DNA of 64,000 nt from Euzebya tangerina (GTDB lineage: Bacteria; Actinomycetota; Nitriliruptoria; Euzebyales; Euzebyaceae). The notes under the pieces are model-generated. The model saw only the letters and a list, made by a program, of their open reading frames with translations. It ran no database searches and was not told the origin of the DNA. The DNA lies in the NCBI RefSeq assembly GCF_003074135.1, contig NZ_PPDK01000001.1:2108001-2172000 (forward strand), in the 5' to 3' direction. The translations under genes and the position numbers were made by a program. Shown here one piece after another: positions 11,366 to 15,414 of the stretch (its first letter is position 1; each line of letters starts with the position of its first letter).

Positions 11366-13102
11366 GTGGCTGAGGAGCCCGGCCGCCCCGTGGATCCGGA
11401 CTGGGCGCGCTTCGCCATGCCGGACGAGTTCACCGATGCCACCCGCATCGGTCGGGGCGGGTTCGGCTACGTCTTCCGGGCGCGCGAGACGTCCCTCAGT
11501 CGAACCGTTGCGATCAAGATCCTGACGCAGCCGTCGGTCGACCAGCGAACCGACAATCGGTTCACCAGCGAACTGCAGGCCATGGGGACCCTGGCCGGGC
11601 ACCCGCACATCGTCACGGTCTACACGTGGGGCAAGACCGTCTCCAAGCACCCCTACATCGTGATGGGGTACATGAGCGGGGGCTCGCTGAAGGATCAGAT
11701 GCAGCGACGGGGGGCCGTGCCCTGGGAGGAGGCGACCGCAGCCATCATCAAGGTGGCCGGCGCCCTCGAGACGGCGCATCGCTCCGGCATCCTCCATCGC
11801 GACGTCAAGCCGGAGAACATCCTGCTGGACGGGTTCGGCGAGCCGGCGCTGGGTGACTTCGGCATCGCCCGCATCACCGGTGGGACCGAGACGGCGACCG
11901 GGTCCATCACCGGCTCACTCAGCCACGTCGCTCCGGAGGTGCTGGAGGGCCGGCGACCGTCACCCGCCTCGGACACCTACTCGCTGGCCTCGACGCTCTA
12001 CGCCCTCGTCGCCGGTCAACCGGCCTTCGCGGGCGAGGAGGACGAGACCCTCACCCCGATGTTGGCGCGGATCCTGTTGAACCCGGTCCCGCCGATCACG
12101 GATCAGGACGTCCCCGACGAGGTGATGCAGGTCATCCTGACCGGTCTGGCCAAGCAGCCGCAGGACCGCCAGGCCTCCATCGAGGAGTTCGGTCGGCAAC
12201 TCCAGGAGGCTCAGACGGAGAACGGTCTGGCGGCCACGTCGATGCTCGTGCGCGGCGACTCCGAACTGGATCTGCCGCACGGTGGATCGACCGGTGAGGT
12301 GTCGGACACGGCGCTCGGGATCGGAGTCCAGGAGCTTCCCACGATCGACCGGGAGCCGCCGCCAGCAGCCCCGAGCGACCCCTCTGCCACTCCTGATGCG
12401 GCCGGCTCCACCAGCGAGGAGGGGACGGACGACCCGGCACCGGTCGCAGCCGCGGCACCGGCTTCGGGCGATTCGACCCGAGCTGCCACCCAAGGCACCA
12501 CCCCACCCTCGCTCGACACCCGCATCGTCCCGCCGGCACCGATACCGCCGCCGGAGCGGAAGGACCGGTCGCGAGGCCGTGGTCTGCTGATCGGGCTGCT
12601 GGTCGGTGCGGTCCTGCTCGTCGGGGCAGTCGTTGGCGCCATGACCTTGACCGGCGGCGATGCCCAGCCGACGGAGACCCCGTCTGGATCGGGAACCCCA
12701 ACCGCTCCGTCGGAGTCGGAGTCCGAGACCGAGCCGACGGAGTCCGAGACCGAGGCCGAGCCGACGGAGACCGAGCCCACCGAGACGGAGGAGCCGGACA
12801 AGGAGGAGGGCCCGGGCATCGATGTCCCGACCCCGACGCCGACCCCCACGCCCACCACGGAAGAGCCCACACCCACGGCCCAGGCGACACAGCCGCAAGC
12901 TGCGAATCCGCCGCCTCCACCGCCTCCTCCACCTCCACCCCCGCCCCCACCACCGCCCCCACCTCCTCCGCCCCCCCCACCGCCCCCACCTCCACCTCCA
13001 CCTCCGCCTCCACCCCCGCCTCCACCTCCACCACCGCCTCCGCCCCCACCGCCTCCGCCCCCACCACCCCCGCCACCGGGGCCCACCACCGCGCCGTTCT
13101 GA
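11366..13102 (+). CDS. Transmembrane Ser/Thr protein kinase with 57-proline extracellular tail
   Basis: A 578-residue Hanks-type kinase (PknB-like). Motifs: glycine loop GRGGFGYV (29-36), VAIK with Lys51, HRDVKPEN (144-151), DFG (164-166). The kinase domain spans about 22-285. An acidic Ala/Pro-rich linker leads to a single membrane helix at about 406-428. Outside are repeated TE/SE segments (PTESETEAEPTETEPTETE), a TPTPTP run and then 57 uninterrupted prolines (515-571), ending PGPTTAPF. No PASTA domain is present. The start is GTG with GAGGG upstream. The stop TGA overlaps the ATG of the CopCD gene by one base, so the two are translationally coupled. The proline tract will need EF-P for translation and would form a stiff rod. 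Confidence 0.92.
   Translation: MAEEPGRPVDPDWARFAMPDEFTDATRIGRGGFGYVFRARETSLSRTVAIKILTQPSVDQRTDNRFTSELQAMGTLAGHPHIVTVYTWGKTVSKHPYIVMGYMSGGSLKDQMQRRGAVPWEEATAAIIKVAGALETAHRSGILHRDVKPENILLDGFGEPALGDFGIARITGGTETATGSITGSLSHVAPEVLEGRRPSPASDTYSLASTLYALVAGQPAFAGEEDETLTPMLARILLNPVPPITDQDVPDEVMQVILTGLAKQPQDRQASIEEFGRQLQEAQTENGLAATSMLVRGDSELDLPHGGSTGEVSDTALGIGVQELPTIDREPPPAAPSDPSATPDAAGSTSEEGTDDPAPVAAAAPASGDSTRAATQGTTPPSLDTRIVPPAPIPPPERKDRSRGRGLLIGLLVGAVLLVGAVVGAMTLTGGDAQPTETPSGSGTPTAPSESESETEPTESETEAEPTETEPTETEEPDKEEGPGIDVPTPTPTPTPTTEEPTPTAQATQPQAANPPPPPPPPPPPPPPPPPPPPPPPPPPPPPPPPPPPPPPPPPPPPPPPPPPPPPPPPPGPTTAPF
12908..13078 (+). repeat. 171-bp CCN tract encoding 57 prolines
   Basis: Every codon from 12908 to 13078 is a proline codon. 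All four third bases are used, so it is not a simple trinucleotide expansion, but the coding strand has G only at third positions and the complementary strand is strongly purine-rich. It is likely to be prone to length change by slippage. Confidence 0.95.
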
Positions 13103-15414
13103 TGAGCGGTCCGGTGGTGTTGGGGCGCCGGAGGATCCGTGTGTGGACAGCCCTCGTCGGTGCCGTGCTGGGACTGCTCGTGCTGGGACTGCCAACACCT
13201 GCGGCGGCGCACACCGCCCTCCTCGGATCCTCACCGTCGACCGGTGAGGAGCTTGCGTACTCCCCACAGGAGGTGGTGCTGCAGTTCGCTGCACCGGTGG
13301 CGACGTCCACCATGCAGGCGAGCCTTCGTAACGCCGCGGGGCAGGAATTCACCCTCGAACTGCTCACGGAGCAGCCCACGACGGAGGCGGTCATCTACGA
13401 GGTGTCCCGTCTGCCTCATGACCTGTACGGGCTGGCCTGGGAATCCGTCGGCGACGACGGGCACCGCGTCAGCGGGGAGGTGGTGTTCGGCGTCGGGACG
13501 GACGTGACCGCCACCGCCGGGTTCGCCCGCAGCACGGCCCCGCTGGACCGCACCCTGGATCTGATCGCCGTGGCCTCGCGGGTTGCCTGGTACCTCGGCT
13601 TGGCACTCCTCGCAGGGGTCGTCGTCCTGGCCCGAACTCGTGCACCACTGGTGGCCGCGCTGGCGGCACGCCGGCTGGATGCCGCGCTGCTGCTGGTCGC
13701 GCTCGCTGCCCTGCTTCGTGGTGTGGTCGGGGTCGCGACCTTCGTCGCCGCCGGTGGCGGACTGGCAGAAGCGGTGCTCAGCCGGCCGCTGCTGCTGTGG
13801 GTCGCGACGGCGCTCGGTGCGGTCGTGGTCCGGCACCGCGGCCGTGGTCGGCCGCCACCTGTCGCAGCCGGTCAGAGACCACGCGCTGGCGGCTGGCTGA
13901 CCTCACCCCTGGTCCTCCTCGCGACGGGGCTGGTCATCCTCGGGACTCTGGCTGGGCACGCACCGACACGCCCCGATCCCGCCGTCGCCGTGCTCTTCGG
14001 CGCCGTGCACCTGGCGGCGGCAGCCGTCTGGATCGGGCCGCTCGGCCTGCTGGTGATGCTCCGACGCACGCCGGCCTGGGCAGCGCTGGGTGAGGATGCC
14101 CGCCGCAGCGAGGTTCAGGCGGCGGTCGCCAGGATCGTGCCCGCGGCCGGCTGGTCGTTCGCTGCTGTCGCAACGTCCGGTGGGCTGTTGGCCCTGCGAG
14201 CGTGGGACGGCATCAGCCTGAGCGGCGGCTTCGGCCTCACCCTGGCCCTCAAGGCGGCCGTCGTCGTCGCAGTGATCGTGCCGCTCGCCATCGTCCACCA
14301 CCGCACCCGGGCGGGATGGCCGCGGATCCCACGCACCGCTGCCGTCGAGGTGGCCGCCCTCGCCGGCGTCATGATCCTCGGCGGGGTGCTGGTCGGTCAG
14401 GATCCCGGCTGGGGGGCAGCCAGCGGGCAGGCCGGCATCTCGGTTGCGCAGGTGCTCGGCGGTGCAGTCGACGAGCCCGAGGACTGCGCCCAGCTGGAGG
14501 TCGGTCGGGCGGCGTGCTACCGCAGCGCCCTGGAGAACGTGCTGGTGGCCGAGGGCCCGCAGTCGGCCATCGACATCATCCGGGATCTGGCAGTCACCAA
14601 CCCCTACGTCACGGCGAACTGTCATCAGGTCGCCCACGACCTCGGCAACGACGCAGCCGAACAGCTGCCCGACCTTGCTGTGGGTCTCGGGGTGCAGGAC
14701 GTGACCTGCTGGTCGGGCTACATCCACGGCTACGTGGAGGCAGCCCTTGCCCGCACCAGCAGTGGCGACCTGGCGACGGAGCTGCCGACCTTCTGCGACG
14801 GCGCCGCGACGACGCCCTACAACCTGACCCACTACAACTGCGTCCACGGGCTCGGGCACGGCGTCATGCTGACCGTCGACGGCGACCTCTTCGAGTCGCT
14901 CGAGCTGTGTGCCGAGGCCCGCGACAACTGGTCGGTGCAGTCCTGCGCCTCAGGTGTGTTCATGGAGAACGTCGTCGCCGCCCAGCAGGGCCTGGACGCC
15001 GAGCTGGACGACGATGACCTGCTCTACCCCTGCACGGCGGTCGACCAGACCTTCGTGGACAGCTGCTTCCTGATGCAGACCTCACACGTGCTCTGGGCGC
15101 TGGAGGATGACATCGAGGCGGCGTTCGGCTGGTGCGACAGCGCCGAGCCGGAGGTGCAGTCGACCTGCTACCGCTCGATGGGTCGGGACCTGTCCAGCCG
15201 GGCGTTGCTGGACGGGCCGGAGACCGCCCGGCTGTGCGGCCTTGGTGACCCGGCGCTGGAGCGGTGGTGCATCCACGGGGCCGCCACGAACGCCGTCTAC
15301 GACCAGATCGCGGCCGGGGCGGCCGACCCGATCTGCGAGGCCGTCGATCCAGCGCTGGAAGCCGCCTGTCGTGAGGGGCAGGCGGACGCCGCAGCGGTTG
15401 TGGCCGCCGGGTGA
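13102..15414 (+). CDS. CopC-CopD fusion with Cys/His-rich C-terminal domain
   Basis: A 770-residue membrane protein in three parts. A signal peptide (1-36) is followed by a CopC domain whose mature N-terminal His37 (AHTALLGSSPS) and GDDGHRVSGE with D119 and H121 match the Cu(II) site of CopC. A CopD-like membrane region of about eight helices spans roughly 155-440. The last 310 residues (about 460-770) are a separate extracytoplasmic domain with 16 cysteines and several conserved-looking His motifs (NCHQVAHDLG, YIHGYVEA, YNCVHGLGHGVM, RWCIHGAA). CopC/CopD proteins handle copper at the outer face of the membrane. I do not recognise the Cys/His domain; there is no CxxCH heme site. It follows the kinase gene with a one-base overlap. 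Confidence 0.85.
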   Translation: MSGPVVLGRRRIRVWTALVGAVLGLLVLGLPTPAAAHTALLGSSPSTGEELAYSPQEVVLQFAAPVATSTMQASLRNAAGQEFTLELLTEQPTTEAVIYEVSRLPHDLYGLAWESVGDDGHRVSGEVVFGVGTDVTATAGFARSTAPLDRTLDLIAVASRVAWYLGLALLAGVVVLARTRAPLVAALAARRLDAALLLVALAALLRGVVGVATFVAAGGGLAEAVLSRPLLLWVATALGAVVVRHRGRGRPPPVAAGQRPRAGGWLTSPLVLLATGLVILGTLAGHAPTRPDPAVAVLFGAVHLAAAAVWIGPLGLLVMLRRTPAWAALGEDARRSEVQAAVARIVPAAGWSFAAVATSGGLLALRAWDGISLSGGFGLTLALKAAVVVAVIVPLAIVHHRTRAGWPRIPRTAAVEVAALAGVMILGGVLVGQDPGWGAASGQAGISVAQVLGGAVDEPEDCAQLEVGRAACYRSALENVLVAEGPQSAIDIIRDLAVTNPYVTANCHQVAHDLGNDAAEQLPDLAVGLGVQDVTCWSGYIHGYVEAALARTSSGDLATELPTFCDGAATTPYNLTHYNCVHGLGHGVMLTVDGDLFESLELCAEARDNWSVQSCASGVFMENVVAAQQGLDAELDDDDLLYPCTAVDQTFVDSCFLMQTSHVLWALEDDIEAAFGWCDSAEPEVQSTCYRSMGRDLSSRALLDGPETARLCGLGDPALERWCIHGAATNAVYDQIAAGAADPICEAVDPALEAACREGQADAAAVVAAG

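Follow-up and report, generated by a model that had tools for sequence, protein, structure and literature searches.

A five-histidine helical repeat domain without a library entry at the C-terminus of a CopC-CopD protein of Euzebya tangerina

What is the long, cysteine-rich tail that follows CopC and CopD in a protein of Euzebya tangerina, and what might it do outside the membrane? The question is raised by a 64,000-nucleotide stretch of contig NZ_PPDK01000001.1 (positions 2,108,001 to 2,172,000 of the forward strand; hereafter the window, whose own numbering is used throughout), in which an open reading frame at 13102..15414, on the + strand as are all window features given below, encodes a 770-residue protein with a CopC domain, a CopD-like membrane part and about 310 further residues. 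A sequence-only reading had proposed that this last part is an unnamed cysteine/histidine helical solenoid that binds copper or another metal outside the membrane, making the protein a three-stage relay. We found that the C-terminal domain (residues 458-770; 14473..15411) is a member of an unnamed family of extracytoplasmic helical-hairpin repeats without an entry in the libraries searched. An alignment of 70 sequences and an AlphaFold model characterise it as a helical repeat domain with five constant histidines, probably stapled by disulfides.

A helical repeat family without a library entry

None of Pfam, NCBIfam, PHROGs and the PDB sequences contained a significant match to the domain of the window protein, in agreement with the earlier view that no named family covers it, and a profile of the domain family likewise matched no PDB sequence. 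When 70 members were scanned singly in Pfam and NCBIfam, only scattered weak matches were returned, each common to at most five of them. A literature text search with the motif HGLGHG retrieved only papers on kininogen or serum peptides. A scan of genome contigs with the single sequence found no relatives; with a small family alignment as query, 78 loci were recovered. An alignment of 70 sequences and a non-redundant set of 99 are used below.

The C-terminal domain was modelled by AlphaFold (AlphaFold 2, AF2) as an all-helical hairpin repeat, with a predicted local distance difference test score (pLDDT) of 93.3 and a predicted template modelling score (pTM) of 0.90, bearing out the helical repeat anticipated from the sequence; the half that carries the five constant histidines was also modelled confidently on its own (pLDDT 90.8). 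Foldseek returned nothing at E<=0.001, either in the PDB (whole domain and five-histidine half) or among viral models (whole domain). The best VIA comparisons, at a Z-score of 6.3 with a root-mean-square deviation (rmsd) of 11.5 over 242 aligned residues for the whole domain, and at Z 7.0 with rmsd 3.8 over 132 aligned residues for the five-histidine half, lie in the range of common helical arrangements. Fold searches of the PDB and viral models returned generic helical repeats only. The proteasome repeats of Rpn1/Rpn2, although top in VIA, were tied with unrelated rows.

The 78 loci span Acidimicrobiia, Euzebya-like bacteria, Thermoleophilia, Rubrobacteraceae, many Patescibacteria lineages and Woesearchaeota, with further loci in single metagenome-assembled genomes labelled Deinococcales, Binatia, Nitrospirae and Proteobacteria; plasmids of Kitasatospora and Gemmatirosa joined the list in later searches. 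Prevalence is patchy, at 17/396 genomes of the phylum of the window and 14/287 of the patescibacterial group around genome G418. The members are mostly membrane-anchored or secreted proteins, and wherever the N-terminus is readable (93 members), a hydrophobic segment precedes the domain. Tandem arrays occur in some Patescibacteria, with up to eight diverged paralogues per genome. We noted arrays of six to eight paralogues in three locus records (L133 3686-14622, from G418:C54, L137 and L138), some of them fused to a cysteine-less cupredoxin; the five histidines are kept in these paralogues, as judged by eye and in those within the non-redundant set. A gene for a long protein of GYYQGYYQ/GYYEG repeats lies near one such array (L133 2-1429).

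Five invariant histidines and eight cysteine pairs

The domain holds exactly 16 cysteines (C462 to C756) and eight histidines, and the cysteine count, together with the absence of a CxxCH site for c-type heme attachment, had been read correctly from the sequence: CxxCH occurs in none of the 99 domains. Five of the eight histidines (H508, H512, H542, H582 and H586) occur without exception in the aligning sequences among the 99 non-redundant homologues, whose identity to the window domain is 19-59%; the first retrieval patterns contained H582, H586 and C580, and so partly selected for these two histidines. The same five are invariant in all 41 sequences found by profile or in whole genomes, divergent tandem paralogues included. 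This constancy indicates that the pattern of the domain is not due to chance. The domain is a real and ancient family.

The five histidines fall into three groups, namely H508-x3-H512 (14623..14637; 98/98 aligned homologues), H542 (14725..14727), which is followed four residues further by E546 (glutamate in 76/98), and H582-x3-H586 in the motif HGLGH (14845..14859; 99/99), close to M589 (82/99). In the AlphaFold model, H508/H512, H542/E546 and H582/H586 lie on three separate helices. Apart from cysteines, only two glycines match the five histidines in constancy; E546, M589, R695 and D696 drift, and around the site E546, M589 and N623 are common without being constant. The HxxxH and HGxxHG motifs originally emphasised correspond to H508/H512 and H582/H586; H725 of 'CIHGAA', like H577 and H662, is not conserved. 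From their conservation in sequence the five invariant histidines are likely metal ligands, and we infer that they would meet in one site.

The cysteines were found to behave differently, being lost in pairs, and are thus probably structural disulfides. Their number is 14, 16 or 18 in all but two of the 70 aligned members, and even in 68 of the 70. In the non-redundant set, 13 sequences lack both C507 and C536 and two lack only one of them (p=2e-14); four lack both C678 and C689 (p=4e-7) and two lack both C712 and C723 (p=3e-4), with no single losses in either of these pairs, whereas co-loss was not significant for control pairings; as the sequences are related, these p values are indicative only. 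We accordingly assign eight pairs, 462/472, 507/536, 565/580, 603/615, 644/655, 678/689, 712/723 and 745/756 (14485..15369), from the co-loss statistics and the even cysteine number, and the simplest reading is of an extracytoplasmic protein in which the 16 cysteines probably form eight disulfides with a structural role. The pairs recur every 33-41 residues or so from C603 onwards, with 10 or 11 residues between partners, a spacing which suggests that each pair staples one helical hairpin. The second and third pairs are irregular (C507-x28-C536 and C565-x14-C580). Hcp/Sel1-like repeat proteins are likewise disulfide-stabilised helical repeats; they differ from the window domain, however, in lacking such irregular pairs, and no Pfam match to the Sel1 repeat was found in the 70 members at E<=0.1.

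These observations lead us to reject a metal site built jointly from cysteines and histidines, as had been suggested from the sequence. Where the C507/C536 pair is lost, H508, which adjoins C507, and H542, which lies near C536, are kept, and a CxxC motif is absent from all 99 domains. Conservation among homologues thus holds for five of the eight histidines, but not for the remaining three, and the cysteines come and go in pairs.

The CopC-CopD fusion and a proposed role for the domain

The protein that carries the domain in the window begins with a hydrophobic stretch that we take as a signal peptide (residues 1-36; 13102..13209), for which cleavage after AAA would leave His37 as the mature N-terminus. 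The CopC domain follows (residues 37-131; 13210..13494; Pfam PF04234, E=1e-13), with the complete Cu(II) site of H37, D119 and H121 that had been noticed from the sequence and that is invariant in all nine fused sequences reaching this part, that of the window included. The CopD-like part (approximately residues 150-440; 13549..14421) has about eight transmembrane helices by hydropathy; the window protein itself falls short of the Pfam threshold for this part, whereas the homologue L009 matches PF05425 at 3.3e-10, and H286, H303 and H399 are conserved, in support of the original assignment. The same membrane region was matched in a further 25 locus records, duplicates of one gene among them. 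About eight membrane helices would place the C-terminus on the CopC side, and the C-terminal domain is predicted to lie outside, as expected previously and in line with the hydrophobic segment found ahead of it throughout the family. Three further genomes of the genus retain the whole architecture, at 48-56% full-length identity to the window protein. The genome of the window (G000) contains six CopC genes, and the new domain is found only on the window one.

The same order of domains is known from YcnJ of Bacillus subtilis, in which an extracellular CopC with an N-terminal-histidine Cu(II) site and CopD are followed by an extra extracellular C-terminal domain (PMC12154828, PMC13344008). Copper-dependent growth under limiting conditions requires CopC and CopD of YcnJ (PMC12154828, PMC13344008), and its C-terminal YtkA domain supports the function of a CuA oxidase (PMC13344008). 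In contrast, the third domain of the window protein is about 310 residues long and all-helical in the model, with eight cysteine pairs and five invariant histidines, and neither YtkA nor any other Pfam family was matched by the C-terminal domain in the 70 members. Because the order is shared and the third domain differs, we propose that the five-histidine domain is an external metal station.

Outside this fusion, the domain is associated with heme and copper proteins in several combinations. Pfam searches over 46 full-length members identified 13 with cytochrome c, three with CopC, two with CopD and one with cupredoxin. In a tree of the family, the CopC-CopD fusion arises once (100/100), as does the cytochrome c fusion, and pairing with cupredoxin appears in at least two separate places. 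At 14 distinct loci, from Patescibacteria as well as Actinomycetota, the domain is fused to a cupredoxin devoid of cysteine or has one encoded beside it; Pfam confirmed the cupredoxin at L043, L066 and L080. These Cupredoxin_1 proteins lack the blue-copper cysteine and share the motif WPASxxHPxH...H[DN]H, and although recurrent partners they form a separate family that is absent from the window protein. The metal site of this subfamily (L043 4959-5366; L080 3813-4196; N-terminus of L066) looks unusual. The domain gene is followed by a cytochrome-b5-like gene in L029 (1.7e-5), with a weak match also in L034, and phmmer, though not Pfam, recognises b5-like proteins beside the domain in L094 and L095. 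The Kitasatospora homologue has Caa3_CtaG (7.2e-74) as its next gene. Taken across the wider family, the cytochrome c, b5-like, cupredoxin and CtaG partners suggest a function in copper handling or redox chemistry outside the cytoplasm.

We therefore consider, at about even odds (probability roughly 0.5), that the domain provides a metal-binding extracytoplasmic five-histidine site, probably a redox-active copper site, in the position occupied by YtkA in YcnJ. The metal role suspected at the outset is made likely by the five invariant histidines together with the copper or redox partners; metal binding itself, copper as the metal and the direction of its transfer we infer. In this proposal CopC would capture Cu(II) outside and CopD would pass copper through the membrane. 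A disulfide would staple each hairpin of the C-terminal domain, and consecutive helices of its N-terminal half would present the five histidines (HxxxH, H, HxxxH), which may form the metal-binding site outside the membrane. With CopC/CopD, or with another cuproprotein or client, that site might exchange copper or alter its redox state. By analogy with YcnJ, this particular fusion could plausibly work as a three-stage relay, which cannot be the general task of the domain, since most relatives lack CopC or CopD. More tentatively, and with the odds leaning slightly against us, we propose a new class of extracytoplasmic metalloprotein, common to Patescibacteria, Woesearchaeota and Actinomycetota, in which a disulfide-stapled helical solenoid would carry an all-histidine (five-histidine) copper or dinuclear centre and be served by a cysteine-less four-histidine cupredoxin, by CopC-CopD or by cytochrome c.

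Several observations weigh against a copper station. Most members stand alone, with no obvious partner, and the partners include heme as well as copper proteins, such that heme or iron is a possible ligand. Cupredoxins are moreover common in the sampled Patescibacteria (183/287 genomes), and their genome-level co-occurrence with the domain is weak (12/14 domain-bearing genomes versus 171/273; p=0.09), leaving the cupredoxin argument to adjacency and fusion. The strongest rival, which we nevertheless regard as unlikely, is a catalytic extracytoplasmic metalloenzyme, an oxidoreductase with a mononuclear or dinuclear five-histidine centre that CopC-CopD would load with metal. The alternating cytochrome c, b5-like and cupredoxin partners resemble interchangeable electron donors to such an enzyme, the tandem arrays, in which as many as eight paralogues have diverged, would fit diversification of substrates, and residues around the site (E546, M589 and N623) are frequent but variable. 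However, no substrate or known catalytic motif accompanies it, the partner cupredoxins without the blue-copper cysteine may not carry electrons, and trafficking suits the CopC-CopD fusion better.

A resemblance to COA7 suggests another possibility, that of a disulfide-stapled repeat which binds heme and aids assembly of the copper centre of a respiratory oxidase. COA7 is of the same design, with five helix-turn-helix repeats, intra-repeat disulfides, heme binding and contact with the copper chaperones SCO1/SCO2 (PMC12114033, PMC10769979); the two share an extracytoplasmic-type compartment, hairpins each with one disulfide and about 7-10 residues between the cysteines, and a link to copper-centre biogenesis. 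The CtaG neighbour in Kitasatospora and the enrichment of COX1 in domain-bearing Patescibacteria (4/14 versus 15/273; p=0.009) agree with this. We consider it improbable, given that homology to COA7 is undetectable (hhalign probability 0.3%, for a single-sequence target), that the domain has eight rather than five pairs, no extra unpaired cysteine and a five-histidine signature, and that the even cysteine count and absence of CxxC leave no obvious reductase thiol. COX1 is also missing from 10/14 domain-bearing Patescibacteria and from G179 (95% complete), and we rejected dedicated oxidase assembly as a general function on account of this absence from most of the domain-bearing Patescibacteria. 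More doubtful still is a protein-binding or structural solenoid with purely structural histidines. The domain resembles generic helical-repeat folds only, and repeat solenoids are usually binding scaffolds, but structure rarely needs five fixed histidines, which here stay invariant at 19% identity while E546, M589, R695 and D696 drift, and copper or heme proteins partner the domain in several independent combinations.

If the proposed external metal station is correct, copper would meet a new station outside the membrane in the form of the third domain of a CopC-CopD importer; copper import in these bacteria is poorly understood. The five-histidine family, unnamed in the libraries searched, also occurs in minimal Patescibacteria and in Woesearchaeota, for which little is known of redox and metal biology outside the cell. 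Identification of the cofactor could assign a role to dozens of proteins that lack annotation, and we consider that the domain merits a name.

Neighbouring genes

Immediately upstream of the CopC-CopD gene, we identified a protein kinase gene (11366..13102; Pfam Pkinase, 7.8e-48; Ser/Thr type), the stop codon of which overlaps the start of the CopC-CopD gene by one base (TGATG). The same order was found in two other genomes of the genus, with a kinase motif upstream in a third, and the CopC-CopD gene and its neighbours are syntenic within the genus. This retained order suggests translational coupling of the kinase with the copper importer. The kinase bears a run of dozens of prolines.

Other surroundings of the domain were noted in more distant lineages. 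On the Kitasatospora plasmid pKP058 (L158 5038-7966), the domain protein lies between carbonic anhydrase and CtaG, with ccsB nearby. In five Thermoleophilia-type loci (L044, L045, L046, L061 and L068), the gene that joins cytochrome c to the domain sits on the opposite strand amid suf genes for iron-sulfur assembly, read by eye as sufS, sufD, sufB and sufC. In Saccharibacteria, a heliorhodopsin gene lies directly upstream of the domain gene (L037 464-1243, PF18761, 2e-93; L039 4428-5207).

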